Positions 3,111-31,231 of a DNA stretch of 33,324 nt are shown in pieces. A program made the position numbers and the translations under genes. Every line of letters begins with the position of its first letter. Position 1 is the stretch's first letter. The notes below the pieces were generated by a model. That model saw only the letters and a program-made list of their open reading frames with translations, ran no database searches and had not been told where the DNA came from. Location: contig JAHFCH010000052.1 in the NCBI GenBank assembly GCA_023249635.1, positions 1 to 33,324 of the forward strand, given 5' to 3'. This DNA is from Fibrobacterota bacterium (GTDB taxonomy: Bacteria; Fibrobacterota; Fibrobacteria; UBA11236).

Positions 3111-3154
3111 GTGAGCGCGGAATGGGCTCGCGCTCCCGACAAAGGATGGTCATT

Positions 3155-11435: not shown

Positions 11436-11462
11436 TTCCGTCCCCTGCAAGAGAAAGACCCC

Positions 11463-11711: not shown

Positions 11712-11716
11712 GCGGT

Positions 11717-12568: not shown

Positions 12569-12572
12569 TGCC

Positions 12573-13589
12573 ATGGGATCCGCCGTGTCCGACATGAACC
12601 CCTCCGCGACCGGCGTTAACGCGCCGGTTACCCCGGCTTCCGAGACGGCGGTGGAGTTCCGTCTGGACGATCGCCGCGTGGGCGACCGCGGCGGGCTGGA
12701 GGGCCGCGGCCTGTTCGGGATCCTGCACCAACCCTCCCGCCCCGGACCCGCCGGCCCGGAGCCGGTCCCCGTGCTCATGGTCAACGGCGGGCCCCAGGCG
12801 CGCATCGGCGCCCACCGTTCCTACGTGCAGATCGCGCGTCATCTGGCCGGGCTCGGCTATACCGTGCTGCGCTTCGACTACGCCGGCCTCGGCGACGGCC
12901 AAGGCGATTTCGTGGGCTACAACAAGGCCGCCCCATCCATTCGCGCCGCGCTGGATTTCCTGCTCTCGCGGGTACCGGCCCAGGGCGCGTACCTGTGGTC
13001 GCTGTGCGACGGCGCCGCGGCGAGTTCCGTCTACGCACCTCACGATGCGCGCATCCTCGCTATGGTGCTCAGCAATCCCTACGTGTTTTCCGATCAGGTG
13101 CGCTCGCAGACCTACATCAAGCATTACTACCTGCAGCGCGTGATGGAGAAGGATTTCTGGGTCAAGGCCGTCACCGGCGGATTGAATCCCTTCAAGGTGA
13201 TAGGCGGCTTCACGGAGCTGTTCCGCAAGGCTTTTATGGGTAAACGCAAGGCCCCGGCACGAGGCGACGCGACGGCAGCGAACGCCGGCGCTCCCGATGG
13301 CAGCTTCGCCAAGGCGGACGTGAAAGAGGAAGTGCTCGGCGGCGTGTGCCGTTTCGGCAAGCGGGTCCACTTCCTGCTCAGCACCGATGATCTCACCGCC
13401 ATGGGCTTCAAGGATCTATTGTTGGGCGGCGGCGAGACCGCGCGCCTGCTTAAGACCGGGCAATTGTCCTACTCCGAAATCGCGGGGTCGGACCATACGT
13501 TTTCCACGCCCGGGGCCAAAGCCGAAGTCTGCGCGCAGACGCGCGCGGCCCTGGAAGGTTTTTCCAAGACAGTGCAAGGGAGGTCCTGA
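12573..13589 (+). CDS. Alpha/beta-hydrolase, similar to exosortase-A-associated hydrolase 1
   Basis: The protein has 338 residues from ATG 12573, four bases after the previous stop; an in-frame opening at 12453 lies inside the upstream gene and is rejected. The fold is visible as 'PVLMVNGGPQARIGAHRSY' (strand with oxyanion Gly), 'GYTVLRFDYAGLGDGQGDF' and the elbow 'LWSLCDGAAAS'. The elbow (residues 143-147) reads S-L-C-D-G, placing Cys145 at the Ser position of G-x-S-x-G; the exosortase-A-associated hydrolase 1 family typically has a 'GLCDGA' elbow. 'GSDHTFS' near the C-terminus supplies the likely catalytic His. An insertion around residues 223-250 (Lys/Ala/Gly-rich) looks like a flexible lid. 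It probably acts with the preceding hydrolase, since the two families travel together. Confidence 0.75.
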   Translation: MGSAVSDMNPSATGVNAPVTPASETAVEFRLDDRRVGDRGGLEGRGLFGILHQPSRPGPAGPEPVPVLMVNGGPQARIGAHRSYVQIARHLAGLGYTVLRFDYAGLGDGQGDFVGYNKAAPSIRAALDFLLSRVPAQGAYLWSLCDGAAASSVYAPHDARILAMVLSNPYVFSDQVRSQTYIKHYYLQRVMEKDFWVKAVTGGLNPFKVIGGFTELFRKAFMGKRKAPARGDATAANAGAPDGSFAKADVKEEVLGGVCRFGKRVHFLLSTDDLTAMGFKDLLLGGGETARLLKTGQLSYSEIAGSDHTFSTPGAKAEVCAQTRAALEGFSKTVQGRS

Positions 13590-15187
13590 TGTCAAGAGTA
13601 CTGCAAGATACGCTCCGCGAAGCGGCCCGGGATGCCGGCGCCAAGGAAGCCGTGCTCCAGAAGGACAAGGCCATCACCTATCAGGAGCTGTACCTCAAGT
13701 CCAACGCCCTCGCGAAGGCGCTCATCGATAGCGGCGTCGTGAAAAGCGATCGCGTTTCCTTCTTCCTGGAGAAATGCTTCGAGAAAGTCATCTCCATCTA
13801 CGGCATCCCGGCGGCGGGCGGCGTGTTCGTGCCCATCCGGCGCCTGTCCAGCGGTCCCCAGGTGGAGCATATCCTCAAGGACAGCGGCACCAAGGTGCTC
13901 ATCACCAATTACGCCCGCTTCGGCGCGCTCATGGCATTCGAGGCCAACCTGCCGGATCTGGAAACCATCATCGCCATCGGCGACAAGGCCGAGGCCGGCG
14001 AACATTGGCCCAAACGCGTGAAGGTGGTGGACTGGGAACAGGTGGTAGGCAAGGGCATCGCGGAAGCGCCCGCGCTGCGCGTGATCGAATCCGATCTCGC
14101 CGCCATCCTGTACACCTCCGGTTCCACCGGCAAGCCCAAGGGCGTGGTTCTCTCGCACCTCAACATCATGGCGGGCGCCCGCTCGATTTCCGAATACCTG
14201 AAGATCACCTCCGAGGATCGCATCCTCAGCATCCTCACCTTCGGGTTCGACTACGGGCTCAACCAGCTCACCACCTGCGTCATGCACAAGGCCCAGATCG
14301 TGCTGCTGGAATACCTGTTCCCCAAGGACATCATCACCAACGCGCGCAAGTACGGCATCACGGGCATCGCCACCGTGGCCACGACGTGGATCCAGTTGAT
14401 GAACATCAAGTGGAACGGGGAGGATATCCCCACCCTGCGCTACATCACCAACTCCGGCGGCGCCATCCCGGAAAATCACGTGCGGGAATTGCGCACGCGC
14501 CTGCCTAACGTATCCATGTACCTCATGTACGGCCTTACCGAAGCCTTCCGCTCCACCTTCCTGGATCCCTCCCTGGTCGATCAATTCCCCACCTCCATGG
14601 GTAAGGCCGTCCCCGGCGAAGAGATCCTGATCCTGGACGAGTACGGCAAGCAGGTGCCTGCCGGCGGCACCGGCGAACTGGTGCACCGCGGCGTCTTCGT
14701 GGCCCAAGGCTATTGGAACGCGCCCGATCTCACCGCCATCCGCTACAAGCCTTTCCCGGGCCAGCCGGCCGCCGTGCCCTTGCGCGAGATGGCCGTCTTC
14801 TCCGGCGACCAAGTGAGGATAGAAGCCAACGGCTTGCTGTATTTCGTGGGCCGCAAGGACGAGATGATCAAGAGCACCGGCATCCGCATCAGCCCCACCG
14901 AGATCGAAGAGATCCTGTACGCCTCGCAGGTGGTCAAGACCGCCATGGCCTTGGGCGTACCCGACGCGGTGCTCGGATCCGTGGTGTGCGCCGTCATCGT
15001 CATGGCCGAGGGCAAGGAAGACGCCCGCGCCGAGCTGGAAGCCTACTGCAAGCAGAATATGCCCACCTATATGGTGCCCAAGGTATGGGAATGGCGGACG
15101 ACCCTGCCCACCAACACCAACGGTAAGCTGGACCGCGCCATGATCCGCGACGAGATCCAGGCCAAGTACGGCGGAAAGAAAGTCTGA
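13589..15187 (+). CDS. AMP-forming acyl-CoA/acyl-ACP ligase, exosortase-A-associated type
   Basis: The 532-residue protein is a member of the ANL adenylating superfamily. The P-loop-like A3 motif 'ILYTSGSTGKPKG' is at about 174-185, 'YLMYGLTEAF' matches A5, 'GELVHRGVFVAQGYW' and 'FSGDQVRIEANGLLYFVGRKDEMIK' match A6-A8, and the C-terminal catalytic Lys is in 'NTNGKLDR' (K513). It adenylates a carboxylic acid and transfers it to CoA or, more likely here, to the phosphopantetheine of the neighbouring ACP. The start overlaps the previous stop by one base (TGATG) with a strong GGGAGG site, so expression is coupled. Neighbour content matches the acyl ligase found beside exosortase A with the same decarboxylase and hydrolases. 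The substrate acid cannot be read from the sequence. Confidence 0.88.
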   Translation: MSRVLQDTLREAARDAGAKEAVLQKDKAITYQELYLKSNALAKALIDSGVVKSDRVSFFLEKCFEKVISIYGIPAAGGVFVPIRRLSSGPQVEHILKDSGTKVLITNYARFGALMAFEANLPDLETIIAIGDKAEAGEHWPKRVKVVDWEQVVGKGIAEAPALRVIESDLAAILYTSGSTGKPKGVVLSHLNIMAGARSISEYLKITSEDRILSILTFGFDYGLNQLTTCVMHKAQIVLLEYLFPKDIITNARKYGITGIATVATTWIQLMNIKWNGEDIPTLRYITNSGGAIPENHVRELRTRLPNVSMYLMYGLTEAFRSTFLDPSLVDQFPTSMGKAVPGEEILILDEYGKQVPAGGTGELVHRGVFVAQGYWNAPDLTAIRYKPFPGQPAAVPLREMAVFSGDQVRIEANGLLYFVGRKDEMIKSTGIRISPTEIEEILYASQVVKTAMALGVPDAVLGSVVCAVIVMAEGKEDARAELEAYCKQNMPTYMVPKVWEWRTTLPTNTNGKLDRAMIRDEIQAKYGGKKV

Positions 15188-16428
15188 TGACCGCCAACCT
15201 GTCACCCCTGCCGCCTCTGCCTTCCGGGTTCGAGGCCAAGGGCCCGGATCTCCTTTTCGCCGGCAAGACCGTGGCCGCCTGGGCCGCACAATACGGCACC
15301 CCGCTATATCTGTACGATACCGCGCGCCTCAAGCGGAAGTATGAAGCCCTGCGGGCCGCCATGCCCAAGGAGCTATACCTCTCCTACGCCATCAAGGCCA
15401 ACCCGCATACCGAGGTGATCCGTTTCCTGGGGAAGCATTACGACGGCGTCGATCTGGCATCGATGGGCGAAATGGCCAAGGCCATGGAAGCGGGCGTGGA
15501 ACCGGCCCGCATGAGCTTCGCGGGACCGGGCAAGAGCCCGGCGGAATTGGAATTCGCCGTCAAGAACGGCATCGGCGCGATTTCCGTGGAGAGCCAGCGC
15601 GAACTGGAGCTCATCATCGGGATCGCCCAGCGCCTCAATACCAAGGCGCGCGTGTATTTCCGCGTCAACCCCGCTTTCGAGCTGGGCAGCTCCGGCCTCA
15701 AGATGGGCGGCGGCTCCAAGCAATTCGGCATCGACGCCGAATTGATCCCGGACCTGGTCAAGGGGCTCAAGGGTAACCCGCTGGTGACCTTCCATGGTTT
15801 GCATTTCTTCACCGGCGTGCAGAACCTCAACGCCGACGCCATCCTGTCCGCCTTCGAGAAGATCCTGGCCTATGCGGCCGACCTGGTGGAATCGGCGGAC
15901 GCCTCGATGGAAGTGCTCAACCTGGGCGGCGGTTTCGGCATCCCGCATCATCGCGGCGACGGCGAACTCGACCTGGCCAAGGTGGGTGAAGGCATGGGCA
16001 AGCTGTTCGACGCCATCCGCCCGCGCCTACCCAAGACCCGCTTCAAAATAGAGCTCGGCCGCTTCGTGGTCGGCGAATGCGGCCTATACATCTCCAAGAT
16101 CCTGTACCGCAAAATGTCGCGCGGCGGGGTCTTTCTGGTCATGGATGGCGGCTTACACCAATACCTGGCGGCCTCGGGCCACATGAGCGGCAATCCCATC
16201 CACCGGCCCATGAACATCGCCATCGCCAGCCGCATGGACGCGCCCCTGGAGAAGGTCAATGTAGTGGGCACGCTCTGCACGCCTCTCGATCGCTTCGGAT
16301 TCAACCTGGAGCTGCCCCGCGCCGAAGAGGGCGATCTCATCGCCGTGCTCAACGCGGGCGCCTACGGGTTCTCGATGAGCCCGCTCACCTTCCTCAGCCA
16401 TGCGCTGCCCAAGGAAGTGGTCTTGTGA
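15187..16428 (+). CDS. PLP-dependent decarboxylase (DapDC/ODC fold type III), exosortase-A-associated type
   Basis: The 413-residue protein has the alanine-racemase-like barrel with the PLP Schiff-base lysine in 'LSYAIKANPH' (K70), the 'FHGLHFFTG' His that stacks on PLP, a Gly-rich phosphate loop 'LNLGGGFGIP' and the C-terminal C-x-x-x-D motif 'LCTPLDRF' (C364, D368) that completes the active site across the dimer. This is the pattern of diaminopimelate/ornithine decarboxylases. No lysine or polyamine pathway genes are nearby, and it overlaps the acyl ligase by one base. It most likely decarboxylates an amino-acid-like precursor for the EPS decoration rather than serving primary metabolism. 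Exosortase-A clusters carry a decarboxylase of this kind next to the same ligase. Confidence 0.88.
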   Translation: MTANLSPLPPLPSGFEAKGPDLLFAGKTVAAWAAQYGTPLYLYDTARLKRKYEALRAAMPKELYLSYAIKANPHTEVIRFLGKHYDGVDLASMGEMAKAMEAGVEPARMSFAGPGKSPAELEFAVKNGIGAISVESQRELELIIGIAQRLNTKARVYFRVNPAFELGSSGLKMGGGSKQFGIDAELIPDLVKGLKGNPLVTFHGLHFFTGVQNLNADAILSAFEKILAYAADLVESADASMEVLNLGGGFGIPHHRGDGELDLAKVGEGMGKLFDAIRPRLPKTRFKIELGRFVVGECGLYISKILYRKMSRGGVFLVMDGGLHQYLAASGHMSGNPIHRPMNIAIASRMDAPLEKVNVVGTLCTPLDRFGFNLELPRAEEGDLIAVLNAGAYGFSMSPLTFLSHALPKEVVL

Positions 16429-17762
16429 GCATAGACGCCCCCGCCTCCGCGCAGTCCCAGGCCCCCGGGGCCGCGGTTCCCGCAGGAGCCGTTGCGCCCG
16501 GCAAGTCCCTGAACCTGCTGATGGTAGCGTTCCACTTTCCGCCCATCGCGGGCAGCAGCGGATACCTGCGCACCTTGAAGTTCGCCAAGTACCTGCCGGC
16601 TTCGGGCGTACAGCCCACCTTGCTCACGGTCAAGCCGCAAGTGTACGCGGCCTATGACAAGAACGCCAAGCCGCCCCTGCCGGAGACCACCCACGTGGAG
16701 CGGGCCTTCGCCCTGGATTCCCGCCGGGCCTTCGCCATCAAGGGCAAGTCGCTCTCGCTTTTCAGCCTGCCGGACAGGTATTGGACCTGGGTGCCTTTCG
16801 CCGTGGCCGCGGGCCGCCGCCTGATACGCGAACGCAACATCGACGCGATCTTCTCCACCTACCCCATCGCCAGCGCCCACCTGATCGGGCTCTTGCTGCA
16901 CCGCCTGACGGGCAAGCCCTGGATCGCGGACTTCCGCGATCCCATGTGGGACGAATTCACCGGGGCCAAGGGCCTCTCCTTGAGCCTGCGCCAACGCATC
17001 GAAAAGGCGGTACTGCGCCGCTGCACCACCGCCATGGTCTGCACCGATGCCATGTATGATCTTTTCTGCCGCCGCTACCCGGATCAGAAGCACAAGTTGA
17101 TGAACATCCCCAACGGCTTCGACGATGAGGATTTCCAGGGGCTCGACATCCCCGCGTCCCGCGCCGCCGGCCCCGTACGCCTGCTGCATACCGGACTGCT
17201 GGAGCCCGTTGATCGCGATCCGGTACCCTTCTTCAAGGCCGTCAAGGCCCTGTGCGAACGCCGCCCCGGGCCCGCCCCCGTTGTCGTGGATCTCATCGCC
17301 CCCAGCGACGAGGAGTACTACAACAAGGTGATCGCCGAAATGGGCCTGCAAGGCGTCATCAACATCCTGTCCTGGCGGCCCTACAAGAAATCGCTCGAGG
17401 CCATGGCCGCCACCGACATCCTGCTGCTGTTCCAGGGCCCCAGCTGTTTCAGCCAGGTGCCCGCCAAGCTGTATGAATACATGCGCGTAGGCCGCCCCAT
17501 CATGGCCATCACTCCCGCCGCGGGAGAGACCGGCAAACTCGTGCTGGGCACCGGCTCGGGCCGCGTGGTGGTCCATGATGATCCCGAAGCCATCGGCAAA
17601 ATGCTCGAGGAATGGGTCGACTCCGTGCAGAACGGCGCTTCCCTTCCCAAGGCCGGCCCCGAAGCCGTCCTGCGTTTTTCCCGCAGCCGCCACGCGCAAT
17701 TGCTCGCGGCCAGCCTGCATCAAGCCATTACCAGAAAACCCCATCCCGGAGAATCGCCATGA
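16425..17762 (+). CDS. Glycosyltransferase, GT-B fold (GT4-like)
   Basis: The protein has 445 residues from GTG 16425, overlapping the decarboxylase stop by 4 bp, with AAGGAA upstream; openings further upstream are inside the previous gene. After an Ala/Pro-rich leader, 'LLMVAFHFPPIAGSSGYLRT' is the standard N-terminal start of GT4-like enzymes. 'WIADFRDPMWDEF' and 'NIPNGFDDEDF' mark the domain junction, and 'PAKLYEYMRVGRPIMAI' is the nucleotide-sugar binding part of the C-terminal domain. It has no membrane segment, so it is probably a cytoplasmic or peripheral enzyme adding a sugar to a lipid-linked repeat unit. Donor and acceptor cannot be read. Its coupling to the ligase/decarboxylase module suggests that the glycan and the decoration are assembled together. 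Confidence 0.85.
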   Translation: MSIDAPASAQSQAPGAAVPAGAVAPGKSLNLLMVAFHFPPIAGSSGYLRTLKFAKYLPASGVQPTLLTVKPQVYAAYDKNAKPPLPETTHVERAFALDSRRAFAIKGKSLSLFSLPDRYWTWVPFAVAAGRRLIRERNIDAIFSTYPIASAHLIGLLLHRLTGKPWIADFRDPMWDEFTGAKGLSLSLRQRIEKAVLRRCTTAMVCTDAMYDLFCRRYPDQKHKLMNIPNGFDDEDFQGLDIPASRAAGPVRLLHTGLLEPVDRDPVPFFKAVKALCERRPGPAPVVVDLIAPSDEEYYNKVIAEMGLQGVINILSWRPYKKSLEAMAATDILLLFQGPSCFSQVPAKLYEYMRVGRPIMAITPAAGETGKLVLGTGSGRVVVHDDPEAIGKMLEEWVDSVQNGASLPKAGPEAVLRFSRSRHAQLLAASLHQAITRKPHPGESP

Positions 17763-19183
17763 TTCCGCGTACCCCCCTTCTGCTCGCCGGCGTCCTGTGC
17801 GCCGCCGCGCTGGCTTCCCTCGCCACGGGCGCGCCCGTGTCCAAGTCCCTGAACGCCCATAAGTCCCAGAAGTCCGCCGCCCGCGATTTCTACTGGTACT
17901 ACTATCCCATCGATTCCACCGGCATCCCCCAGGACGCCGACGGCATGACCACGGGCGCGGCCAAACTGCGCTACGATTCCAAAGGCGTGCCCAAGGTGGC
18001 CTATGGCCGCGGTCAGGACGTCTATTACGCCGAGCTGGACGGCAACGCTTGGAAATGGCAGGTCGCCGACACCGCCTTCAAATACGAAGCCAAGTTGACC
18101 ATGGATCTGGACAGCGAAGGCAATCCGCACATCGTGCATGAGGATTTCCGCTACAACGTAATCCACTACGCCGGTTACGACGGAAAAGCCTGGAAGCACA
18201 AAGTACTGGATACCATCCACGACGAGACGTTCGGCAATTTCTACGCGTTGTCGCTCAAGGTCGATGGCAAGAAAAACCTGCATCTGTTCTATCCGCGCAT
18301 GAACACGGCGGCCGACGGACATAGCGGCGCCACCTACGGGCGCTTCGGGACCGACTTGGGATTGGTCCGCCGCGATTCCCTGTGCAGCTGCGGATCGAGC
18401 GGAAAATGGGCGGGCCTGGCGCTCGACTCCAAGGAGAACCCGGTGATGGCCTTCTTCACCAACACCATCGAGAAGGCGCAGGTCGCCTACCTGAATGGCG
18501 ATGCGAAATTCATGGTGGATACCCTGAAGACGGCTGATGCGGCCGGTCCCAATGGGCAATACGCCTCCATCGCAATCGATTCCAAGGACTCGCTTTTCAT
18601 AACCCACCACACGCGTAAGCCCGACGTCGACTCCTGGCTGCTGATGACCGCGGGCAAGGCCGGGGGGCCGTACAAGACCGACACCGTGGCCAAACTGGGC
18701 GGCAATCCCCTCTGGATTTCCACCAGCCCCATCGCTCTCGGCAAATCCGCGACGCCGTACATCGCCTATCTCGCTAGCAAGCAGGACGGCCAGTACCGCG
18801 TGAGCGAGGGCAAGTTGCGCCTCGCCTGGAAGACGGACGCCGGCTGGAACACCGAGACCATCGATTCCTCTTCCGCCATCACCGGCCTGTTCCCCGACAT
18901 CGCGATCAACAAGGATGGCCTGCCCTCGGTGGTCTTCTACAATTACAGCAAAAAGCAATTGTGGCTGGCGGTGGCGCGGCCGGATGAACCCAAGGACGCC
19001 AACAGCAACGGCATCCTGGACTACCAGGAGACGCCCATCGTAACGGTGGGACTCGCGAAGAATATGCTGAAGAAGGGGAAGTCCGCCACCAAGCGCGGCG
19101 CATCCCTGTTCGACGCCAGCGGGCGGAAGGTGAAGGACGTAGCCGCGGTGAAGCGTTTGCCGACGGTAGCGTATCCGAACTAG
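17759..19183 (+). CDS. Secreted beta-propeller-like protein with C-terminal sorting-like tail
   Basis: The protein has 474 residues from ATG 17759, overlapping the glycosyltransferase stop by 4 bp, with GGAG upstream. It has a clear signal peptide (LLLAGVLCAAALASLATGA). The body repeats a blade pattern of 'hydrophobic-D-S-K-x-x-P-x-hhY' ('LRYDSKGVPKVAYG', 'MDLDSEGNPHIVHE', 'LALDSKENPVMAFF', 'IAIDSKDSLFITHH', 'IAINKDGLPSVVFY'), typical of BNR/sialidase-like or NHL-like propellers without obvious catalytic residues. 'DANSNGILDYQE' is a Ca-binding loop, and the end 'SLFDASGRKVKDV' is a short FCB-style tail. That a secreted protein is translationally coupled to glycosyltransferase and decoration genes suggests that it binds or matures the exported polymer. 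I do not recognise a specific family. Confidence 0.7.
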   Translation: MIPRTPLLLAGVLCAAALASLATGAPVSKSLNAHKSQKSAARDFYWYYYPIDSTGIPQDADGMTTGAAKLRYDSKGVPKVAYGRGQDVYYAELDGNAWKWQVADTAFKYEAKLTMDLDSEGNPHIVHEDFRYNVIHYAGYDGKAWKHKVLDTIHDETFGNFYALSLKVDGKKNLHLFYPRMNTAADGHSGATYGRFGTDLGLVRRDSLCSCGSSGKWAGLALDSKENPVMAFFTNTIEKAQVAYLNGDAKFMVDTLKTADAAGPNGQYASIAIDSKDSLFITHHTRKPDVDSWLLMTAGKAGGPYKTDTVAKLGGNPLWISTSPIALGKSATPYIAYLASKQDGQYRVSEGKLRLAWKTDAGWNTETIDSSSAITGLFPDIAINKDGLPSVVFYNYSKKQLWLAVARPDEPKDANSNGILDYQETPIVTVGLAKNMLKKGKSATKRGASLFDASGRKVKDVAAVKRLPTVAYPN

Positions 19184-19490: not shown

Positions 19491-21686
19491 TTAATAGTTG
19501 GCGTAGTAAGAAGCGGATAGCACATCGGCATTATGCCCCAGCCCCAGTTCTCCATTGAGATTGGAACCCCAGCTCGCGGCGTAGCTGGAAAAACGGGCAA
19601 GGGTATGGTTGCCTCCCGCGGCAAGGTAAGTCGCGGTCACCGGCAACCACCAATCGAGGTTGCTCCGATTGCTGGTGGTGCCATCTCCCAATTGCCCGTT
19701 GGAGTTGCTTCCCCACGCGTGCACTTGTCCGAATTGGAACTGCGCGAAGTTGTGGTTCGCATAGTTGCCGCTGACCACGGAGATAAACCCGTTTCCGGCA
19801 TTCCACGGAATGGTGACGTTCGCGGAGGTGGAATTCTTGCCGATCTGCCCGACATTGTTCTTGCCCCATGCCCAAAGCGATCCGTCATTGCGAAGGGCCA
19901 GGGTATGTTCCTGGCCGCATGCCACTGCCACCCAGGAGTAATCGGGCGAGGTCCCGCCGACTTGGGTCGGCGTCCATTGGTTATTGGGGTAGTTGGATCC
20001 GAGTTGGCCGTTGTTGTTCTTCCCCCATGCGTAAAGGCCTCCATTACTGCGGATGGCAAGGCCATGCGAACTGCCCGCGGCGATGGCGATCCATTTGGAG
20101 GTTCCGGGGATCTGGGTCGGAGCCGTACGGTTGGTAAACGAACCATCGCCTAACTGGCCGACGTCGTTGCGTCCGAAACCCCAGATGGTTCCGTCGCCCC
20201 GCAAGGCGAGGGTGAAATCATCGCCGCATTTCACATCGATCCAGCGGGCATCGGATCCGACCTGGCTGAAACTGGACGTAGGCGTATTCGTGCGGCCCAG
20301 CTGGCCGTAAGAGTTGCTTCCGGCCGACCACATCGACCCATTGGAAAGGATGCCCAAGGTATGGGTGGAGCCTGCGCAGGTCTTGATCCAGGTCGCGGAA
20401 TTGACCGGCGTCGGGCTGAGTTTGTTCGCCGTGGAGCCCAGACCCAATTGGCCGGCTGTTCCCAGGCCGAAAGTGAACAAGCGGCCGTTGCCTTTGATCA
20501 AGGTCGAATGCCATCTGCCGGCGGCCTGGGAGCCGAGACGGCAATTGGAAAGCACGGTGCCCGGGGTCTGGCCTCCGGGTAGGCCGGCCAATTCGCTGCC
20601 GGTGGCGTAGCCCCACGAGAAAACCGAGCCCTCGACGCCGATGGCCACGTTGATATCATGGCCTGCGGAGATGGAGACGATACGGATGCCATAGGGAATG
20701 GGCACCTGTAGCATGCTTGTCACCGGTGCACTTGCGTATCCGAGGCCCAGCTCGGCATGGTAATTAGATCCCCAGGCGTAAAGATCGCCGCTCGTCGTAA
20801 GGGCCAGGCAATGGTATGTGCCGCAGGAAACCGCCTTCCAATTCTTTCCGGAGCCCCGCTGGATAGGGGTCATCCGGTTGGTGGTGGTCCCGTCGCCGAC
20901 CTGGCCGTCGCTGTTCCAACCCCAGACCCATAAGGTACCGTCGGCCTTGATCGCGGCCGAGGTCGATTTCAATCCGAAGCCGGTGCCCAAGGTGGCCCAA
21001 TCACTGCCCGCCAATTGGACCGGTGCGGCGTATTCCTGCGCTTGGGATGCGGCGCCGACGCCGCCGACGTTGTTCTTGCCCCATCCCCAGAGGGAGCCAT
21101 CGGCTTTCAACGCGTTGCAATAGTTGTATCCGCAGCTGACCGACTTCCATTTGGTATCGGTCGTCTGGATTTGCTTAGGGGATTTCCGGCTTATGGCTCC
21201 GGCTTCGCCCAAGGATCCGTTGTCGGACATGCCCCAGGTCCACAGCGTGCCGTCGCCCCGGATGCCCGCACCATGGGTCCGGCCGGCGCTGATGGTCACC
21301 CAACCGGTCCCCTCGACATAGGCGCCGCCGTTGTAGTTGCCGCGACCGTAGGTATTCAGGCCACGGGTCAATGCCGTCCCGTTTTCCAGCACGATGATCG
21401 AGAAGGGATTGGTTTGATCCCCGCCCGCGGAAATTTCACGTACGCCCGGACCGGTCTCCCCGTTTTGGGCCAGATTATATGGACTCGTGAAGGGACCACC
21501 GCCGGTCAGCATCTGGTAGTTAGCGTTGTCGCCCCAACCCCACAGGCTGCCGTCGGATTTTACGCACATCTGGTATTTGCTTCCGGCGGCTGCGATGCCG
21601 AGCGGATAGCTTCTGGCGGCCGCGCAGGAAAGGCCAGGAAGCAATAGCGAGCACATCGAGAGTAGCTTCAGATTCCGTATCCGCAT
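19491..21686 (-). CDS. Secreted RCC1-repeat (regulator of chromosome condensation-like) propeller protein
   Basis: The protein has 731 residues. ATG 21686 is chosen because a perfect AGGAGG lies 9 bp upstream; an ORF opening at 21737 has no such site. It has a signal peptide (LKLLSMCSLLLPGLSCAAA). The rest is about a dozen copies of a ~50-residue RCC1 unit, 'G..H.LAL..DG.LWAWG.N..GQLG.G.....P', forming one or two seven-bladed propellers. Bacterial RCC1 proteins of this kind are extracellular; most have no known activity and probably bind ligands or matrix polymers. It has its own leader region and is separated from the amidotransferase gene by 170 bp, so it may be transcribed alone or by read-through. 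There is no C-terminal sorting domain; it ends Y-Y-A-N-Y. Confidence 0.88.
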   Translation of the reverse strand: MRIRNLKLLSMCSLLLPGLSCAAARSYPLGIAAAGSKYQMCVKSDGSLWGWGDNANYQMLTGGGPFTSPYNLAQNGETGPGVREISAGGDQTNPFSIIVLENGTALTRGLNTYGRGNYNGGAYVEGTGWVTISAGRTHGAGIRGDGTLWTWGMSDNGSLGEAGAISRKSPKQIQTTDTKWKSVSCGYNYCNALKADGSLWGWGKNNVGGVGAASQAQEYAAPVQLAGSDWATLGTGFGLKSTSAAIKADGTLWVWGWNSDGQVGDGTTTNRMTPIQRGSGKNWKAVSCGTYHCLALTTSGDLYAWGSNYHAELGLGYASAPVTSMLQVPIPYGIRIVSISAGHDINVAIGVEGSVFSWGYATGSELAGLPGGQTPGTVLSNCRLGSQAAGRWHSTLIKGNGRLFTFGLGTAGQLGLGSTANKLSPTPVNSATWIKTCAGSTHTLGILSNGSMWSAGSNSYGQLGRTNTPTSSFSQVGSDARWIDVKCGDDFTLALRGDGTIWGFGRNDVGQLGDGSFTNRTAPTQIPGTSKWIAIAAGSSHGLAIRSNGGLYAWGKNNNGQLGSNYPNNQWTPTQVGGTSPDYSWVAVACGQEHTLALRNDGSLWAWGKNNVGQIGKNSTSANVTIPWNAGNGFISVVSGNYANHNFAQFQFGQVHAWGSNSNGQLGDGTTSNRSNLDWWLPVTATYLAAGGNHTLARFSSYAASWGSNLNGELGLGHNADVLSASYYANY

Positions 21687-21695
21687 AAGTAAGAA

Positions 21696-21701
21696 CCTCC
21701 T
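21696..21701 (-). promoter_or_regulatory. Strong ribosome binding site of the RCC1-repeat gene
   Basis: Perfect AGGAGG on the minus strand, 9 bp before ATG 21686. It decides the start against the upstream in-frame ATG. Confidence 0.8.
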
Positions 21702-21856
21702 GCGCCCGGACTGTTCCATTCGGTGTCCTAAGCCCAATTTGGAAGTTATTTAGGGATGCGGTGACTGGAAACACCAATAGAAATGGTGACGCGAGGCATG
21801 GGGAGCGAAGCCAGCCCCGTGTTTCGCTCGAAGGTCAATCATCTCTAATGGGGCCG

Positions 21857-23732: not shown

Positions 23733-25289
23733 TCAGCCTCCCGTCCCCGCGCCCGCGGTCCCGAATGCCAGCCGCCGCCCTACCGCGATCAATCCGACCC
23801 GGTGCTCCCTGGCGATCAGGAAGAACCACGCGGCGATCAGGTAGGCGACGGATACCAACGTAAAGCAAGCGAAGATCGGCGCCCAACCGCCATGGGGGGC
23901 AAAGCGCATGAGCGGGCGGCCGGAGAGGTAGAGTAAACCGGTCACCAGGAAATTGGGCAGAATGGCGTGGCGCAGGTATTCATAGAGGCCGGCCCCGGCC
24001 TGGCGCATCGCCAGCAAAGGGACCAGGGCGCCTTCCCACAAGGCCATGGGGACCAGGGTCGCGATGGCCATGCCCACCATGCCGTAGCGCGGGACCAAGG
24101 CCAGGGCCAGGCCCGCGATGCACAGGGATTCCAGGGCGATGAAGCCCGCGAACAACTTGTTCTTGCGGCGGCCGAACAGGATCTGCTGGGCGACCGCGCT
24201 CGAGAGGGCGGCCATGTTGGCAAGGGTGAGCAGCGCCAAGACGGTGGCGCTCGAACCATACGGCCCGTCCGCCACGAATTTTTCCCCCATCCATTGACCC
24301 AGGAAATCGCGACCCACCAGCAGCAGGTTCAGGCCCACCAAGAAGACCAGGGCGGTGAGGTAGCGCGTGCCGGTCAGGAACATGGCGCGAATGGAGGCCT
24401 CGTCGGCGTGGACGTCCATGGGGATGATCGCCTGCAGTAGCGGAGTGGTGACGGCGCTCGCGATTCCAGCCATGTAGGGGAGCATTTCCGATCCCACGCT
24501 GTAATAGGTCACGGCCGCCGCGTCGATCTTGCGGGCCAGGATGAAGGCCCAGAACCCCGCGCCGAACTGGGCCGATACGTTGAGCAGGAAATTGAAGACG
24601 CCGTACAGGAATAACTCATGGAAGGCCGGGAAGCGGAAATGGAGGGGACGGAATACCAGCGAAGGCACCGCGCGGCGGGCGAAGAAGACCAGGACGATCC
24701 CTTCCAGCAAATGGGTCGTAGCGGCGACCACAGCGAGGCCAACCAATCCCTTGCCCATGCGGAAGGCCAGCACTACGCAAAGCGCATTGGCGATCTTGAC
24801 TCCTGCCGAAACCGCGCTCACGATATCGAAGCGCTGGGCACCCACCAGCAGTCCCTGGAAAACCGAGAACGGGAACTTCATTCCCGTGACCAGGCCCATG
24901 AGCAGGAACGCGGCGCGCACCGGGGCCACGGCATCGGCGGGCACGTGGAAGAAACGGGAGAAGAGCGCGGCCGCCCCCAGGCAGGAAACGACCACCGCCA
25001 ACCCCACCAACAGCAGGACCGTGAGCGCCGAATTGATCTTGTCGTTGAGCTTCCCGCCGTCCTTGTCGGCCATGTGCCGGGCCACGTAATGGCCTACGCC
25101 CGATTGAATGCCCAAATCGAAATAGCCGAAATAGGCGACGGCGGTGACCACCAGGGACCAGTAGCCGTAGCTCGCGTCCCCCAGGCTGCGGACCAGGAAG
25201 GGTGAAAGGAAAAAGCCGATCGCGATGGACGTGACGAAGGCGCCCCAGTTGCACAGGATATTGCGCAGGTACCGGCGGCTATCAAACAC
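23733..25289 (-). CDS. Polysaccharide flippase (Wzx-like, MOP superfamily)
   Basis: The protein has 518 residues from GTG 25289; the longer opening frame overlaps the PIG-L gene and is rejected. Roughly 12-14 hydrophobic segments span it, beginning 'NWGAFVTSIAIGFFLSPFLVRSLGDASYGYW', the typical N-terminal signature of oligosaccharide flippases of the RfbX/Wzx family ('LG...YG.W'). 'YFGYFDLGIQSGVGHYVAR' is the conserved second region. It would move the lipid-linked repeat unit across the inner membrane for Wzy-type polymerisation. No Wzy polymerase, Wzc kinase or Wza-type export gene lies in the window. It sits between the PIG-L deacetylase (41-bp gap) and the amidotransferase (1-bp gap), consistent with one operon. 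Confidence 0.85.
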   Translation of the reverse strand: MFDSRRYLRNILCNWGAFVTSIAIGFFLSPFLVRSLGDASYGYWSLVVTAVAYFGYFDLGIQSGVGHYVARHMADKDGGKLNDKINSALTVLLLVGLAVVVSCLGAAALFSRFFHVPADAVAPVRAAFLLMGLVTGMKFPFSVFQGLLVGAQRFDIVSAVSAGVKIANALCVVLAFRMGKGLVGLAVVAATTHLLEGIVLVFFARRAVPSLVFRPLHFRFPAFHELFLYGVFNFLLNVSAQFGAGFWAFILARKIDAAAVTYYSVGSEMLPYMAGIASAVTTPLLQAIIPMDVHADEASIRAMFLTGTRYLTALVFLVGLNLLLVGRDFLGQWMGEKFVADGPYGSSATVLALLTLANMAALSSAVAQQILFGRRKNKLFAGFIALESLCIAGLALALVPRYGMVGMAIATLVPMALWEGALVPLLAMRQAGAGLYEYLRHAILPNFLVTGLLYLSGRPLMRFAPHGGWAPIFACFTLVSVAYLIAAWFFLIAREHRVGLIAVGRRLAFGTAGAGTGG

Positions 25290-25330
25290 CGGAGCCCCCG
25301 GAGAAGCCCGGCGCGCGCCCGTCCATGGCC

Positions 25331-25975
25331 TTACCAGCTCAGCTTGCGGCCGAAGAAGGCCTCGGCGAAGCGGGTCGGCGAATTCGCCTCCATGCCGCGC
25401 AGACGCAGCAGGGCGCGGAAGGTGTCTTCCATGAACCATTGTTTACCTGCCTGGGTGGCGTAATGCTTCATCAGGTGGGCGATCTTGGCGTCGCACTTGG
25501 CCTGGTCCAGGCGCACGAAGAAATTGGGGATACCGAAGTCACCGTCGTACTTGGGGATTTCGTATTCGAGGATCTGGTGATCGCGCCAGGTGTTCCAGGT
25601 CAGTTCCGAGACGATGCGATGATCCTGATGCAAATCCTGGCGGTAATGCGTGAGGATGAGATCCGGGGCGAAGCGCTTCTTGATGGCTTCGAAATCATCC
25701 TTCACCTCGGCCCAATGGTTGGGCAGGAAACCATCCCGATAGGAATGGATCAGGATTTCCCGCTTGCCTGCGCCTTGCAGGAAGGCCTCCGCGCATGCCG
25801 ACGCTTCCGCCTTGCGCACGGGATTGGAGGCGAAGACCACCCACAGGATCTCGGCCTGGGGATTCTCCTCCACCAGGCGCATGACGGTTCCCCCGCATCC
25901 GATTTCGATATCGTCGCAATGGGCGCCCAGGCATAGGATTCTGTTGAGGCCGCCGGCGAAGGAAAGGGTTTTCAT
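25331..25975 (-). CDS. PIG-L/LmbE family deacetylase
   Basis: The 214-residue protein has 'ILCLGAHCDDIEIGCGGT' at residues 13-30, corresponding to the zinc motif A-H-P-D-D, but Pro is replaced by Cys20. 'YRQDLHQDHR' (H116, H119) is the second metal and catalytic motif. The family removes N-acetyl groups from sugars such as GlcNAc in GlcNAc-PI, mycothiol or antibiotic intermediates. Here it probably deacetylates an amino sugar of the glycan or its lipid-linked precursor. ATG 25975 has GGAGA 6-7 bp upstream. It is the first gene of the minus-strand operon with the flippase and the amidotransferase, and no signal peptide is seen. With the NodB-like enzyme at 8314-9417 it is the second deacetylase in the locus. 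Confidence 0.85.
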   Translation of the reverse strand: MKTLSFAGGLNRILCLGAHCDDIEIGCGGTVMRLVEENPQAEILWVVFASNPVRKAEASACAEAFLQGAGKREILIHSYRDGFLPNHWAEVKDDFEAIKKRFAPDLILTHYRQDLHQDHRIVSELTWNTWRDHQILEYEIPKYDGDFGIPNFFVRLDQAKCDAKIAHLMKHYATQAGKQWFMEDTFRALLRLRGMEANSPTRFAEAFFGRKLSW

Positions 25976-26185: not shown

Positions 26186-27256
26186 ATGAGCAACACCGCC
26201 GTTACCGCCCCCAAACCCGCCGCCTTCACTTCGGCCCCGGAACTCGGCCTGCGCGCCGGCGATTGGGTCGTTGTCCGCTCGAAGGAAGAGATCCTTGCGA
26301 CCCTGGATTCATTGGGACGGCTGGAAGGCATGCCCTTCCAACCGGAGATGTGGGCCTGGTGCGGCAAGCGCCTCAAGGTGCAGAAGTCGGCCCACAAGAC
26401 CTGCGACACCATCCATAAGAGCGGGGGCCGCGGCATCCACGCCGCCGTGCACCTGGAAGGCGCGCGTTGCGACGGCGCCAAGCACGCCGGCTGCATGGCC
26501 GATTGCGTGTTCTTCTGGAAGGAAGCCTGGCTGCGACCCGAAGGCGAGCCCTCCGCCGCGCCGGTCAAAGCGCCCGCGGGCGCCTGCACCGAGGCCATCG
26601 TCGAAGCGCGGGTAAAGGCCCCGGGCCAGGAGAACGAACCGGATCCGGCCTGGGTATGCCAGACCACGGCCTTGTTCGAGGCCTCGACGCCGCTCAAGTG
26701 GTGGGACGTGCGCCAGTACATCAAGGACGTGACCAGCGGCAACCATAGCGCCTGGGCCATGTTCAAGCTGCTGTTCGCGGCCAACTACCGCGCCTTGGTG
26801 CACCGGGGCATCGGCTACAGCTACCTGGTCGGGTTCTACAACTTCGTGCAGAAAATACGCGGCGGCGAGCCCTATCCCGAGGCCGTCGGCAAGATCCCGG
26901 ACGGCCAGCCCACGCCGGTGGAAAAGCTTACCCTCAAGGTGGGCGACTGGGTGGAAGTGCGTTCGCGGGAAGAGATCGAAGCGACCATGACCGTTAACGG
27001 TTTCAACCGCGGCATGCGCTTCGACATCGAGATGCTCAAGTATTGCGGCCACCGCTACCGCGTGCAGCTACTGGTCGATCGCCTATTGCATGAGGTGACG
27101 GGAAAGCTGATCCCGATGAAGACGGCATGCATCCAGCTTGAGGATGTCTATTGCCGCGCCACCTGCACGGATTTCCGCCTGGGGTGCCCGCGCATGATGC
27201 CGAGCTATTGGCGTCAGATTTGGTTGAAGCAGGTGGACGGGCCCAAAGGGGCCTGA
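26186..27256 (+). CDS. Unrecognised protein with duplicated Cys-rich domain
   Basis: The protein has 356 residues; ATG 26186 follows AGGA by 5 bp, and ATG 26180 is an alternative. No signal peptide or membrane segment. Two homologous ~100-residue domains flank a linker. Copy 1 begins 'LRAGDWVVVRSKEEILATLD' and copy 2 'LKVGDWVEVRSREEIEATM'. Each continues with '(G)M.F..EM..(W/Y)CG.R..V', a central Cys (KTCDT in copy 1, KTACIQ in copy 2), a C-x3-C-like cluster ('CMADC', 'CRATC') and a closing W. The aligned Cys residues suggest a metal site in each domain. The linker has 'WWDVRQYIKDVTSGN' and a Trp/Tyr-rich stretch. I recall similar conserved hypotheticals near glycan biosynthesis genes but cannot name a function. 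It stands alone between divergent and convergent genes. Confidence 0.75.
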   Translation: MSNTAVTAPKPAAFTSAPELGLRAGDWVVVRSKEEILATLDSLGRLEGMPFQPEMWAWCGKRLKVQKSAHKTCDTIHKSGGRGIHAAVHLEGARCDGAKHAGCMADCVFFWKEAWLRPEGEPSAAPVKAPAGACTEAIVEARVKAPGQENEPDPAWVCQTTALFEASTPLKWWDVRQYIKDVTSGNHSAWAMFKLLFAANYRALVHRGIGYSYLVGFYNFVQKIRGGEPYPEAVGKIPDGQPTPVEKLTLKVGDWVEVRSREEIEATMTVNGFNRGMRFDIEMLKYCGHRYRVQLLVDRLLHEVTGKLIPMKTACIQLEDVYCRATCTDFRLGCPRMMPSYWRQIWLKQVDGPKGA

Positions 27257-27331: not shown

Positions 27332-28666
27332 TTACAACCCTATTCCCTCGTACTTCGGTACGGAATCCTTCGCCAGCATCCGCCGTCCGTCGATCAACAC
27401 CGGCGGCTTCGCCATGGCCTTGAGCTTGGCGGGCACCTGGTTGAATTCCTTCCAGCGCGTCACCAAGATAACGGCATCGGCATCCTTGAGGCAGGCGTCC
27501 AGGGAATCGGCCAGGCTGATGATGTTCCCGAAGATATGGGCCGCTTCGGCCTTGGCGGCGGGATCATAGCCAGTCACGATGGCCTTCTCGGCGGCCAGGC
27601 GTTTGACGATCGGGATCGCCGGCGACTCGCGCATATCGTTGGTATCGGGGCGGAAGGAGAGCCCCAGCACGGCGATGCGTTTGCCCGCCAGGGACGGGAA
27701 ATGCTTCCCGAGCAGGCGGAAGACCTGATCGGGTTGCTTGGCGTTGATATCGAGCACGGCGGAGAGAAGATTCATGGGCAGGCCGATGGCCCGGCCATGG
27801 GCCGCCAGGGCGCTGACGTCCTTGGGCAGGCAAGAGCCGCCGAAGCCGCAACCCGCCATGAGGAAGGAATTGATGGCGGGGGAGATGCGGGTGCCGTCGG
27901 CCAGCACGGGATTGAGGTAACGGCCCAGATGCAGGCCCGCCATCACCTCGGCGCTGTCGATGCCGCCCAGGGTCGAGCCCAGGTTCGCCAATTCGTTCGA
28001 GAACGAGATCATGGTGGCCAGCAGCGCGTTGGACGCGTACTTGATCATCTCCGCGGTGCTGTTGTTGGTCCGCAGACGGGGCGCGTCCTTGAAGGCCGCG
28101 TACAGTTCGTCCTGGGCATCCTGGCTGCGGGCGTCAATGCCGCCCAGTACGATGCGATCGGGATCCATGAAATCGGAAATCGCTTCGCCTTCGGTGAGGA
28201 ACTCCGGGTTCATGCCCACGCCGAAATCGCGCCCGGCCTTCTTGCCGCTGGCCTCTTCCAGGATCGGCAGCACCACCTTGTCGGTCGTGCCCGGCACCAC
28301 CGTGCTTTTAACCACGACCACGTGGTACGAATTCTTCTCTTTCAACGCCGCGCCGATTACGCGGGCGGCTTCTTTCACGTATTTGAGATCGATCACCTTG
28401 CCGTCGAAGGGCGTGCCCACGGCGATCAAGGTCAGATCGGAATCCAGCACGGCTTGGCGGGTATCGAGTGTGGCTTTGAGCCGCGTGCCGATATTGCGCT
28501 TGAGCAGGTCCTCGAGCCCGTTCTCGAAAATGGGAGGATCGCCCTTGTTGATGCGGTCCACCTTGGTCTTGTCCAGATCAATGCAGGTGACTTGATGGCC
28601 CTTGTCGGCCAGGCAGGCGCCCGAGACCAGGCCTACGTAGCCAGTTCCGAGTACGGAAACCTTCAT
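27332..28666 (-). CDS. ugd: UDP-glucose 6-dehydrogenase
   Basis: The 444-residue protein has the normal length for the UDP-glucose/GDP-mannose dehydrogenase family. The Rossmann NAD motif GTGYVG is at 7-12, 'ESLTEG'-type 'NPEFLTEGEAISDF' at about 153-166, 'AEMIKYASNALLATMISFSNE' holds the catalytic Lys and Asn, and 'GCGFGGSCLPKD' carries the thioester Cys (C279). It oxidises UDP-glucose to UDP-glucuronate with two NAD. The short insertion pattern and FLTEGEAI fit Ugd better than the UDP-ManNAc enzyme, though related UDP-sugar substrates are not excluded. ATG 28666 has GGAGG upstream and follows the SDR stop by two bases, so the two are coupled. UDP-glucuronate would feed the neighbouring decarboxylase-like SDR and give the polymer acidic sugars, matching the lyases in the window. 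Confidence 0.92.
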   Translation of the reverse strand: MKVSVLGTGYVGLVSGACLADKGHQVTCIDLDKTKVDRINKGDPPIFENGLEDLLKRNIGTRLKATLDTRQAVLDSDLTLIAVGTPFDGKVIDLKYVKEAARVIGAALKEKNSYHVVVVKSTVVPGTTDKVVLPILEEASGKKAGRDFGVGMNPEFLTEGEAISDFMDPDRIVLGGIDARSQDAQDELYAAFKDAPRLRTNNSTAEMIKYASNALLATMISFSNELANLGSTLGGIDSAEVMAGLHLGRYLNPVLADGTRISPAINSFLMAGCGFGGSCLPKDVSALAAHGRAIGLPMNLLSAVLDINAKQPDQVFRLLGKHFPSLAGKRIAVLGLSFRPDTNDMRESPAIPIVKRLAAEKAIVTGYDPAAKAEAAHIFGNIISLADSLDACLKDADAVILVTRWKEFNQVPAKLKAMAKPPVLIDGRRMLAKDSVPKYEGIGL

Positions 28667-28668
28667 CT

Positions 28669-29772
28669 TTAAGCCTCCGACCCTTCGCGGTTGCCCGTGT
28701 ACCAGATCAGCGAACGGCGCAGGCCTTCGTCGACGAGGATGGAGGGATTGAAATCCAGTTGCTCGCGGGCCTTCTTGATGATCGGGCAGCGGCGCTCGGG
28801 ATTGTCGATCAGGTATTCGGCATCCATCTTCTTCACGACTTTGCCCTTATAGCCTACGAGTTCGCGGCCGAGGGCGGCGACCTTTTCGGCCAACTCCAGC
28901 ATGGAGATCTCCGGGGTCTCGACGCCCACGTTGTAGGCCTCGCCGGGAACGCCGCGCACCAGCACCTTGTAATAGCCCGTGACCGCGTCGGCCACGTAGC
29001 AAAAGGTGCGCTTGGGGCTGCCGTCGGATTTCATCACGATGTCGCGGCCGTTGAGCACGTCGCGGGCGAAATCGGGCAGCACGCGGGTGTCCGTGATCTT
29101 GAGGCCGGGGCCGTAGTTGTTGAACGGGCGTGCCACCTTGATGGGAATGCCGTGCTGCTGCACGAAATTCACGCACAAGGTCTCGCCATAGCGCTTGGAC
29201 TCATCGTAGCAGGCGCGCGGGCCGGTGCAGGATACGTTGCCGCGGTAGGTTTCCGGGGTCGGTATCATATCCGGCGTGGGATCGCCGTAGATTTCGCTGG
29301 AGGAATAGAACAGGAAGCCCTCCACCTTGCCGGGCTTGTCCTTGCGGGCCTTGGCGTATTCCAGCAGCGAGCGCAGGCCGCCCACGTTGGCGTCCATGGT
29401 CTCGATGGGATACTTCTTGTAGTAGATCGGCGACGCGATGGATCCCGCGTGGACGATGAACTGGAAGTCCGGGATGTCGGCGGGCAAGGGCATGGAGATG
29501 TCGAACTTGATCAACTCCAGGTTGGCGGTACCGTTGAGGGAAGACAACCAGGCGGGCACGCCGCGGATATAGTTGTCGTAGACCGTAAGCCGGATGGGCT
29601 TCACCGCGGTCTTGTTGTAATGCAGGATCGACTGCACCAGGTAATACCCCAGGAAGCCCGCGCCTCCCACGATGAGCAGGCGCTTGCCCGCCATGGTCCC
29701 GAATTCCTGCTTCAGGTTGCCGCAGATGTAGTCCAGGTCTTTGTTTACGATGTCCGCCGCTGTCTCAGCCAA
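28669..29772 (-). CDS. NAD-dependent sugar epimerase/dehydratase (SDR), UDP-glucuronate decarboxylase-like
   Basis: The protein has 367 residues. After a ~30-residue N-terminal extension, 'LLIVGGAGFLGYYL' is the extended-SDR NAD motif (GGAGFLG at 36-42). 'YSSSEIYGDP' supplies the catalytic Ser, 'CYDESKRYGE' the Tyr189 and Lys193 pair, and 'ARPFNNYGPGL' the substrate strand. 'GPRACYDESKR' is typical of UDP-glucuronate decarboxylases (UXS, giving UDP-xylose), and its partner Ugd makes the substrate. The start is TTG at 29772, supported by GGAGAA 6 bp upstream and the absence of a nearby ATG. A 4-epimerase or 4,6-dehydratase role cannot be excluded, since the match is by motifs only. It lies downstream of the heptamer-repeat hairpin. 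Confidence 0.82.
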   Translation of the reverse strand: MAETAADIVNKDLDYICGNLKQEFGTMAGKRLLIVGGAGFLGYYLVQSILHYNKTAVKPIRLTVYDNYIRGVPAWLSSLNGTANLELIKFDISMPLPADIPDFQFIVHAGSIASPIYYKKYPIETMDANVGGLRSLLEYAKARKDKPGKVEGFLFYSSSEIYGDPTPDMIPTPETYRGNVSCTGPRACYDESKRYGETLCVNFVQQHGIPIKVARPFNNYGPGLKITDTRVLPDFARDVLNGRDIVMKSDGSPKRTFCYVADAVTGYYKVLVRGVPGEAYNVGVETPEISMLELAEKVAALGRELVGYKGKVVKKMDAEYLIDNPERRCPIIKKAREQLDFNPSILVDEGLRRSLIWYTGNREGSEA

Positions 29773-29907: not shown

Positions 29908-31146
29908 TCACGAAATGATGGTCGGTTCCGGAATGGGGATGATCCACTTTCCGCCCCACTCGCGGATGTACGCCGTCTGCTCGATGATTTCCTTCTGGAT
30001 GTTCCACACGCCGACGAACAAGTAGTCGGGCTTGGTCTCCTTGATCTTGTCCGGGGACAGGATGGGGATATGCGTGCCCGGCAGGAAATTGCCCTGCTTG
30101 TAAGGATTCTTGTCCACGGTGTAATCGATGAAGTCCTTGCGGATGCCGCAGTAGTTGAGCAGGGTGTTGGTCTTGCCCGCGGCCCCGTAGCCCGCGATTT
30201 TCTTGCCGGCGCGCTTCGCGTCGATGAGGAAATCCAAAATCTTGCGCTTGGTCTCCTTCACCTTCTCTTCCCAGCGGGAGTAGAATTCCAGCGTATTCAT
30301 CCCCGCGGCGTCTTCCTTGGCGAGCATGGCGGCTACCGCCGGGCCCGGCTTGGCGCCTTCGGCATGCTGGGCGAAGATGCGCAACGAGCCGCCGTGGGTG
30401 CCGATTTCCTGCACGTCCACGATGGCCAGGTGGTAATGGGCGAAGAGCTTGTTCACCAAAGTGAAGGAGAGGTAGGAGAAATGCTCCTGGTAAATCGTAT
30501 CGAACTGCATCCCGGCCATCATGGTCATCAGGTGCTGGAACTCAATGGTGATGGTGCCGCCCTTTTTGAGCAATATCTCGAGACCGCCCACGAAGTCATG
30601 CAGATCGGGTACATGCGGCAGCACGTTGTTGCCCAGCAGCAGGTCGGCGGTCACGCCTTCCTTGACCAATGCCTTGGCGGTTTCCACTCCGAAGAACTTG
30701 ACCACGGAGGGCACGCCCTTTTCGATGGCCGATTTCGCGACGTTGCCGGCGGGCTCGATGCCGAGCACGGGTATGGCCTTCTTCACGAAGTACTGGAGCA
30801 GGTATCCGTCATTGCTGGCGATTTCGATCACCTTGCTTTGCGGGCCCAATCCCAGGCGGGGCACCATCATATCCACGTAGTCGGACGCATGCTTGAGCAT
30901 GGTGGCGGCGAAGGAGGAGAAGTAGGCGTATTCGCTGAAGATCTTTTCCGGCCCCACGTAATCGCGCAGCTGCACCAGCAGGCAGTTCTCGCAGAGGAAC
31001 ACGTGAAGGGGAAAGAACTCCTCCCCCTTGTCCAGGTCCTTGGGCTCCAAATGGGTCTGGCAGAGGGGAGACATCCCCAGATCCACGAAGGTGCGGGACA
31101 GGGGCTTCCGGCAGAAGCGGCAAGGGGCGTTGGATTCGATGGCCAT
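29908..31146 (-). CDS. SAM-dependent C-methyltransferase-like protein with N-terminal zinc-binding domain
   Basis: The protein has 412 residues from ATG 31146, with GGAGAA upstream; the longer frame adds a spurious hydrophobic leader. Four Cys form the family's N-terminal zinc module: 'CRFC' (C9, C12) and 'CENC' (C52, C55). 'KVIEIASNDGYLLQYF' (about 105-120) is SAM motif I, in the E-I-A-S-N-D-G form typical of the TylCIII-type sugar C-methyltransferases. The C-terminal domain has 'IAGYGAAGKTNTLLNY' and 'DKNPYKQG.FLPG.HIPI', also typical of this family. These enzymes methylate keto-deoxysugar nucleotides, and some relatives form or transfer other branches. It suggests a branched or deoxy sugar in the glycan, but no dTDP-sugar (rml) genes are present here, so the substrate is open. 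Confidence 0.85.
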   Translation of the reverse strand: MAIESNAPCRFCRKPLSRTFVDLGMSPLCQTHLEPKDLDKGEEFFPLHVFLCENCLLVQLRDYVGPEKIFSEYAYFSSFAATMLKHASDYVDMMVPRLGLGPQSKVIEIASNDGYLLQYFVKKAIPVLGIEPAGNVAKSAIEKGVPSVVKFFGVETAKALVKEGVTADLLLGNNVLPHVPDLHDFVGGLEILLKKGGTITIEFQHLMTMMAGMQFDTIYQEHFSYLSFTLVNKLFAHYHLAIVDVQEIGTHGGSLRIFAQHAEGAKPGPAVAAMLAKEDAAGMNTLEFYSRWEEKVKETKRKILDFLIDAKRAGKKIAGYGAAGKTNTLLNYCGIRKDFIDYTVDKNPYKQGNFLPGTHIPILSPDKIKETKPDYLFVGVWNIQKEIIEQTAYIREWGGKWIIPIPEPTIIS

Positions 31147-31212
31147 GCAGGGGATTCTCCGGGGGTGCAACGCGAAAAAAGTAAGGATGCTCAAGGTAAA
31201 TATTAAGGGCAT

Positions 31213-31231
31213 CGGGCTCAATTAGAGCCCG
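31213..31231. terminator. Perfect 7-bp hairpin upstream of the C-methyltransferase gene
   Basis: CGGGCTC, loop AATTA, GAGCCCG lies between the two methyltransferase genes (31147-31348). On the minus strand it is followed by ATGCCCTTAATATTT, not a real T-tract. It could terminate the upstream methyltransferase transcript or serve as a leader structure. Confidence 0.4.

Follow-up and report, generated by a model that had tools for sequence, protein, structure and literature searches.

Gene Identity and Genomic Context

The window analysed here, a 33,324-nucleotide stretch of a Fibrobacterota contig (JAHFCH010000052.1), carries a glycan locus that includes one gene of unrecognised family, and the question it raises is what a cysteine-rich protein with two similar copies of one domain does in such a locus. 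The gene lies on the + strand at 26186–27256 and encodes 356 residues; its frame runs from ATG 26186, or possibly ATG 26180, to the stop at 27254–27256 and is open throughout. Three stops interrupt the frame exactly opposite, and the longest overlapping antisense ORF tested (26309–27052) has a swapped codon-position GC pattern. GC3 of the + frame is 0.85, as in the neighbouring genes, and homologues were found in 32 other loci, supporting that this is a real gene. A consensus scan identified no promoter-like site for it.

The gene stands by itself on the + strand; on one side it is flanked by a PIG-L gene and on the other by a sugar-nucleotide dehydrogenase gene, both on the − strand. Profile searches assigned the surrounding − strand genes to a PIG-L deacetylase (25331–25975), a UDP-glucose/GDP-mannose dehydrogenase family member (27332–28666), an NAD-dependent epimerase/dehydratase (28669–29772), and a sugar C-methyltransferase (Methyltransf_13/14; 29908–31221). 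In 22 other loci, a PIG-L gene of the same subfamily is found no more than approximately 8 kb from the gene, and the same C-methyltransferase family lies near it in 15 others. A polysaccharide flippase (Polysacc_synt_3/MatE; 23733–25439, −) is located two genes away; it belongs to a different subgroup from the flippases adjacent to homologues and scored only 41.9 bits against their profile. DUF4910 and nucleotidyltransferase genes are present on another contig of the same genome. Within the genus, the C-methyltransferase lies approximately 23 kb from the two-copy gene on the same contig in one genome (G002) and is present in another that does not carry the gene (G001).

Internal Duplication and Predicted Fold

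The sequence-only reading had described a duplicated cysteine domain, and this duplication was clearly borne out. Copy 1 (residues 18–120; 26237–26545, +) and copy 2 (residues 245–353; 26918–27244, +) align with an hhalign profile–profile E value of 1.8e-26, and their pairwise score of 139 lies far above that of shuffled sequences (n = 5000; mean 25.4, sd 4.3, maximum 53; z 26). The shared motifs pointed out in that reading are present in both halves: GDWVVVRSKEEILAT (residues 25–39) corresponds to GDWVEVRSREEIEAT (residues 253–267), and EMWAWCGKRLKV (residues 54–65) corresponds to EMLKYCGHRYRV (residues 282–293). Copy 1 contains C59, C73, C95, C103, and C107, and copy 2 contains C287, C315, C323, C327, and C334. 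Three cysteine pairs (C59/C287, C95/C323, and C103/C334) and the terminal tryptophans (W111/W342 and W115/W346) are aligned between the copies.

The segment between the copies (residues 121–244; 26546–26917, +) had been taken for a Trp-rich linker. It does contain four Trp, but it is conserved and is thus not a mere linker. It holds the conserved C158-Q159 pair and a WWD.RQY stretch; among the 33 family members aligned, C158 and Q159 are kept in all, T161 and N186 in 32, and Q177 in 31. Two amphipathic basic helices are predicted in this middle part at low confidence only, with a hydrophobic moment of 0.3–0.7 and a net charge of +1 to +9 across members.

The fold of a single copy was modelled with AlphaFold2 for copy 1, using 10 rows (five copy-1 and five copy-2 sequences). 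The model (pLDDT 85, pTM 0.76) is a small SH3-like beta barrel, and such a barrel is a fair call. A full-length model built from five rows had a pLDDT of 52 and was left out of the fold searches; the middle part and the cysteine geometry therefore lie outside the usable model. Foldseek of the copy-1 model against the PDB gave no match below E 0.001 (best E 0.054), with weak Mind bomb entries at E 0.065, 0.11, and 0.14. When the Foldseek matches were compared by VIA-align, three Mind bomb 1 entries ranked first (Z 7.5, 7.4, and 6.9), the best superposing at 2.4 Å over 71 of 103 residues, and ribosomal barrels followed at Z 6.3 and lower; the tool itself warns that a Z under 8 may reflect just a common arrangement. 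In the viral structure library, one unnamed match fell below 0.001 (5.0e-4); the matches were barrel proteins, and 2 of the 50 listed were labelled as Mind bomb SH3 repeats.

The MIB/REP repeats of Mind bomb 1 (Pfam SH3_15; PDB 4xi7, 4xi6, and 4tse) are tandem SH3-like barrels, like the pair predicted here, and are the top solved folds by Z. They differ in that identity to the two-copy protein is 18–19% and Z stays below 8. The SH3_15 profile weakly matched 3/33 members at E ≤ 1 (best E 0.02) and, at a cut-off as loose as E 5, did not match the window protein, so the protein is not a Mind bomb repeat by Pfam. The conserved cysteine set, the middle part, and the bacterial glycan context are not known to be features of Mind bomb. 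Kinship with Mind bomb is suggestive only and is not established. Nitrile hydratase beta and large-subunit ribosomal proteins, which are also SH3-like barrels, showed weak fold likeness and a similar GD.V.V strand; these matches have weak E and Z values and are of a kind often seen with this barrel type, and the comparison covered fold and strand.

Family Membership and Distribution

No family in Pfam, NCBIfam, PHROGs, or PDB sequence profiles fits the two-copy cysteine protein. A double-psi beta barrel profile gave weak matches spanning just 22–45 residues. Matches to PDB sequence profiles were rejected as a family identity, being short barrel-strand matches together with a few unrelated weak ones. 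With the Foldseek and Z values given above as the best structural matches, the protein remains unrecognised, as first described, and it matches no characterised family strongly. No convincing relative was present in PHROGs, phage records, or viral contigs either, and searches of a paper library for its motif, for such a cassette, and for an adaptor of flippases found no paper.

The working set consisted of 33 members, namely the window protein and 32 two-copy homologues whose match to the model extends over both copies. Excluded from it were another three Mesorhizobium plasmid records with near-identical matches, second copies of loci already in the set, and one partial match (G741). The latter is confined to the middle part (approximately 70 residues, E 8.5e-4), lies in a region without a family-model match, and was rejected as too weak. 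Named homologues come from one MAG each of Burkholderiales, Pseudomonadales, and Dechloromonas and from Acidovorax delafieldii, and from plasmids of Mesorhizobium (4), Bosea (1), and Nonomuraea (1). The family thus occurs in no fewer than three phyla (Pseudomonadota, Actinomycetota, and that of the window), with a clear cysteine signature and no name in the libraries searched.

The gene is present in 3/5 other genomes of the window's genus and absent outside that genus from the rest of the phylum set (167 genomes). With the centre genome counted in each case, it occurs in 3/398 genomes of the phylum and 3/200 of the family of Acidovorax, in 4/337 of the class (one a weak partial) and 17/295 of the family of G457, and in 2/300 of the order of Dechloromonas. 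None of these partly overlapping sets (167, 398, 337, 200, 295, and 300 genomes) contained a one-domain relative, although distant ones could be missed because in most sets only the best few first-look candidates per genome were scored.

The member sequences inspected by eye showed no evident signal peptide. Two members, L031 (8608–9978) and L080 (8245–9600), carry a double transmembrane hairpin with basic flanks at the N-terminus. By the positive-inside rule, basic flanks lie on the cytosolic side, and both ends of these hairpins should therefore be in the cytosol.

Cysteine Conservation and a Putative Metal Site

Cysteine conservation across homologues proved mixed rather than lacking. Four cysteines are kept in 33/33 members, as would be expected of a zinc or Fe-S protein: C95 (codon 26468–26470), C103 (26492–26494), C107 (26504–26506), and C158 (26657–26659), spanning 26468–26659 on the + strand. 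C59 is kept in 32/33 members. C73, C323, and C334 are each kept in 31/33, and all three are missing in the same two members, L031 and L080. Retention of the other copy-2 cysteines is lower (C287 24/33, C315 13/33, and C327 10/33).

The suggestion of one metal site per copy is disfavoured by this retention pattern. The invariant quartet straddles copy 1 (C95, C103, and C107) and the middle part (C158, outside both copies), three of the copy-2 cysteines are less often kept, and C323 and C334 vary with C73 of copy 1. If a metal is bound, the alignment suggests that one asymmetric putative site in copy 1 and the middle part fits better. C73, C323, and C334 could perhaps form a second site bridging both copies; this pattern may reflect a single loss, because L031 and L080 also share the N-terminal hairpin.

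Association With a Sugar Cassette

The proposed tie to surface-glycan genes was upheld, as it recurs in distant bacteria. A PIG-L gene lies within approximately 8 kb in 23/33 loci. A nucleotidyltransferase (glucose-1-phosphate cytidylyltransferase-like, below cut-off) is near the gene in 22, a MOP/Wzx flippase in 18 (16 of these within 300 bp; the more distant window flippase is outside this count), a C-methyltransferase and an SDR in 16 each, an RmlC-like gene in 13, and DUF4910 in 12. These counts are lower bounds, because the contigs that carry two of the loci are short (L070, 5.3 kb; L079, 6.8 kb). Each neighbour was found in 0/20 arbitrary 18.5-kb control regions from 14 of these genomes; since the controls are non-glycan loci, they do not demonstrate a preference for this cassette over other glycan loci. 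Partners are shared across Alpha-, Beta-, and Gammaproteobacteria and Nonomuraea. PIG-L, nucleotidyltransferase, C-methyltransferase, and DUF4910 are all missing nearby in 10/33 loci.

Co-occurrence was analysed in 80 genomes of one family, where PIG-L (E ≤ 1e-20) was present in 15/17 genomes with the gene and 0/63 without it (Fisher 2e-14, a value that overstates independence given the relatedness of the co-occurring genomes). In both exceptions, G1091 and G1278, the copy of the gene is divergent. PIG-L is not nearby in G1251 and G1267 and lies approximately 15 and 11 kb away, respectively; in G1207 it is on another contig. The family is thus statistically tied to one glycan pathway and offers a marker for the sugar made there.

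The reverse relation does not hold. Of 29 plasmid records with PIG-L, five carry the two-copy gene, and 24 do not have it on the same record; it was also found in 0/5 regions fetched from these 24, and three of these five regions have an annotated flippase. The idea that gene and cassette always occur together was therefore dropped, as the gene is not part of every DUF4910/PIG-L cassette. Presence of the gene is thus a better guide to the cassette than the reverse, and the gene is regarded as accessory. In the gene-less cassettes L101–L105, a "glutamate-1-semialdehyde 2,1-aminomutase" is annotated nearby in 5/5, which may be an aminotransferase of the sugar pathway.

In 2014, a cassette with DUF4910 (CA_C2195) was suggested to produce a modified carbohydrate of the cell surface, and its neighbourhood includes a sugar epimerase/dehydratase, a nucleotidyltransferase, a SAM-dependent methylase, and several times an export protein (PMC4000134). 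The neighbours of the two-copy gene are similar to these. Unlike in the present loci, neither PIG-L nor a protein of this kind is named where that paper describes the neighbourhood, and its supplementary tables may list the latter as a hypothetical protein.

Pairwise distances of the two-copy protein correlated most highly with those of the flippase (Mantel r 0.81, compared to 0.59–0.76 for five other genes), values that likewise overstate independence among related genomes. A single clade of gene-adjacent flippases had been expected, and the tree contradicted it: the 16 adjacent flippases form three groups (support 1.0, 0.999, and 0.998, the last holding one non-adjacent member) and two single branches, interspersed with non-adjacent flippases. 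The adjacency may therefore have arisen more than once, with some branches separating the groups supported at 0.44–0.74 only. Visual inspection and a rough rule based on hydrophobicity revealed no distinctive tail on the adjacent flippases. On a Bosea conjugative plasmid (L010, 7696–10372), the gene and a divergent flippase form an apparent pair, and this flippase is the sole annotated surface-glycan gene within approximately 9 kb.

Proposed Role and Alternatives

We tentatively propose, at somewhat less than an even chance, that the protein is a cytosolic, membrane-proximal accessory, a two-barrel adaptor with a Cys4 site, in a sugar cassette. The cassette would produce a sugar that is C-methylated and probably CDP-linked, and would export the glycan bearing it. 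The two barrels and the middle part would form a binding module comparable to the tandem Mind bomb repeats that act on the cytosolic tail of a membrane protein; the Mind bomb REP region is described as two Mib repeats that bind a short cytosolic box of a membrane ligand (PMC11887331). The helices of the middle part could rest on the membrane, and the module would bring sugar-modifying enzymes to the MOP flippase or to its lipid-linked substrate. The Cys4 site (C95, C103, C107, and C158), most simply zinc, would fix copy 1 to the middle part, and C73, C323, and C334 may link one copy to the other. In this picture the gene, its duplication, the cysteine pattern, the co-location, and the co-occurrence are observed and the barrel fold is predicted, whereas the metal, the contact with the membrane, the adaptor function, its partner, and the kind of sugar are inferred. 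By analogy, a two-barrel, probably cytosolic protein near the membrane and next to an exporter fits an adaptor. Against this reading, the cassette occurs without the gene even in regions with an annotated flippase, ten loci have none of the four cassette markers nearby, the window flippase is two genes off and of another subgroup, adjacent flippases have no distinctive tail, and the fold matches are weak.

Co-location would suit an enzyme equally well. The invariant cysteines could hold a catalytic or structural metal in a protein that modifies the sugar, as such or when lipid-linked. In favour of this are many invariant or almost invariant polar residues, namely D41, R94, Q159, R275, and R343 (33/33), K71 and D74 (32/33), and K112 (31/33), and the co-occurrence with sugar-modifying genes. 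However, no enzyme family matched in profile searches, the cassette exists without the gene, and the nearest folds are binding or ribosomal barrels, although nitrile hydratase beta, an enzyme subunit, is among the weak matches. An enzyme is considered possible but less likely.

A stronger form of the adaptor proposal, which we regard as distinctly unlikely, is that the protein is a dedicated cytosolic accessory subunit of MOP (Wzx) flippases, with tandem SH3-like barrels locked by two part-joining metal sites, and that it would dock the sugar-modifying enzymes onto the flippase so that only the finished C-methylated unit is exported. A role in service of the flippase would make the protein a cytosolic partner for exporters of the Wzx type; we know of no established example, and the literature search likewise found none.

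A regulatory role in glycan synthesis, or one as its redox/zinc sensor, with the cysteines as a switch, would agree with a cysteine-rich, probably cytosolic protein that is accessory rather than universal, but no DNA-binding or signalling domain scored above curated cut-offs, and in 16/33 loci the gene is within 300 bp of a flippase; this reading seems very unlikely. That the gene is a passenger, moved along with glycan loci without a tie to this product, would agree with the frequent transfer of such loci, with the ten loci without markers, and with the gene-less cassettes, but is highly improbable given the PIG-L co-occurrence, including in G1251, G1267, and G1207, and the same partners in distant bacteria.

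Other Features of the Window

Exosortase-A-associated genes of the locus matched TIGR03098 and TIGR03100 above cut-offs and TIGR03099, TIGR03101, and TIGR03108 below them. One exosortase-A-associated run at 9507–17762 (+) encodes an amidotransferase-like protein, two hydrolases, an acyl-CoA ligase, a PLP decarboxylase, and a glycosyltransferase. Four long ORFs had no match in Pfam at E ≤ 0.001; they are located at 1204–2991 (−), 3122–4789 (+), 4678–7062 (+), and 17612–19183 (+). An RCC1-repeat protein of 748 residues is encoded within the glycan locus at 19491–21737 (−; WD40_RLD, E 8.8e-133).
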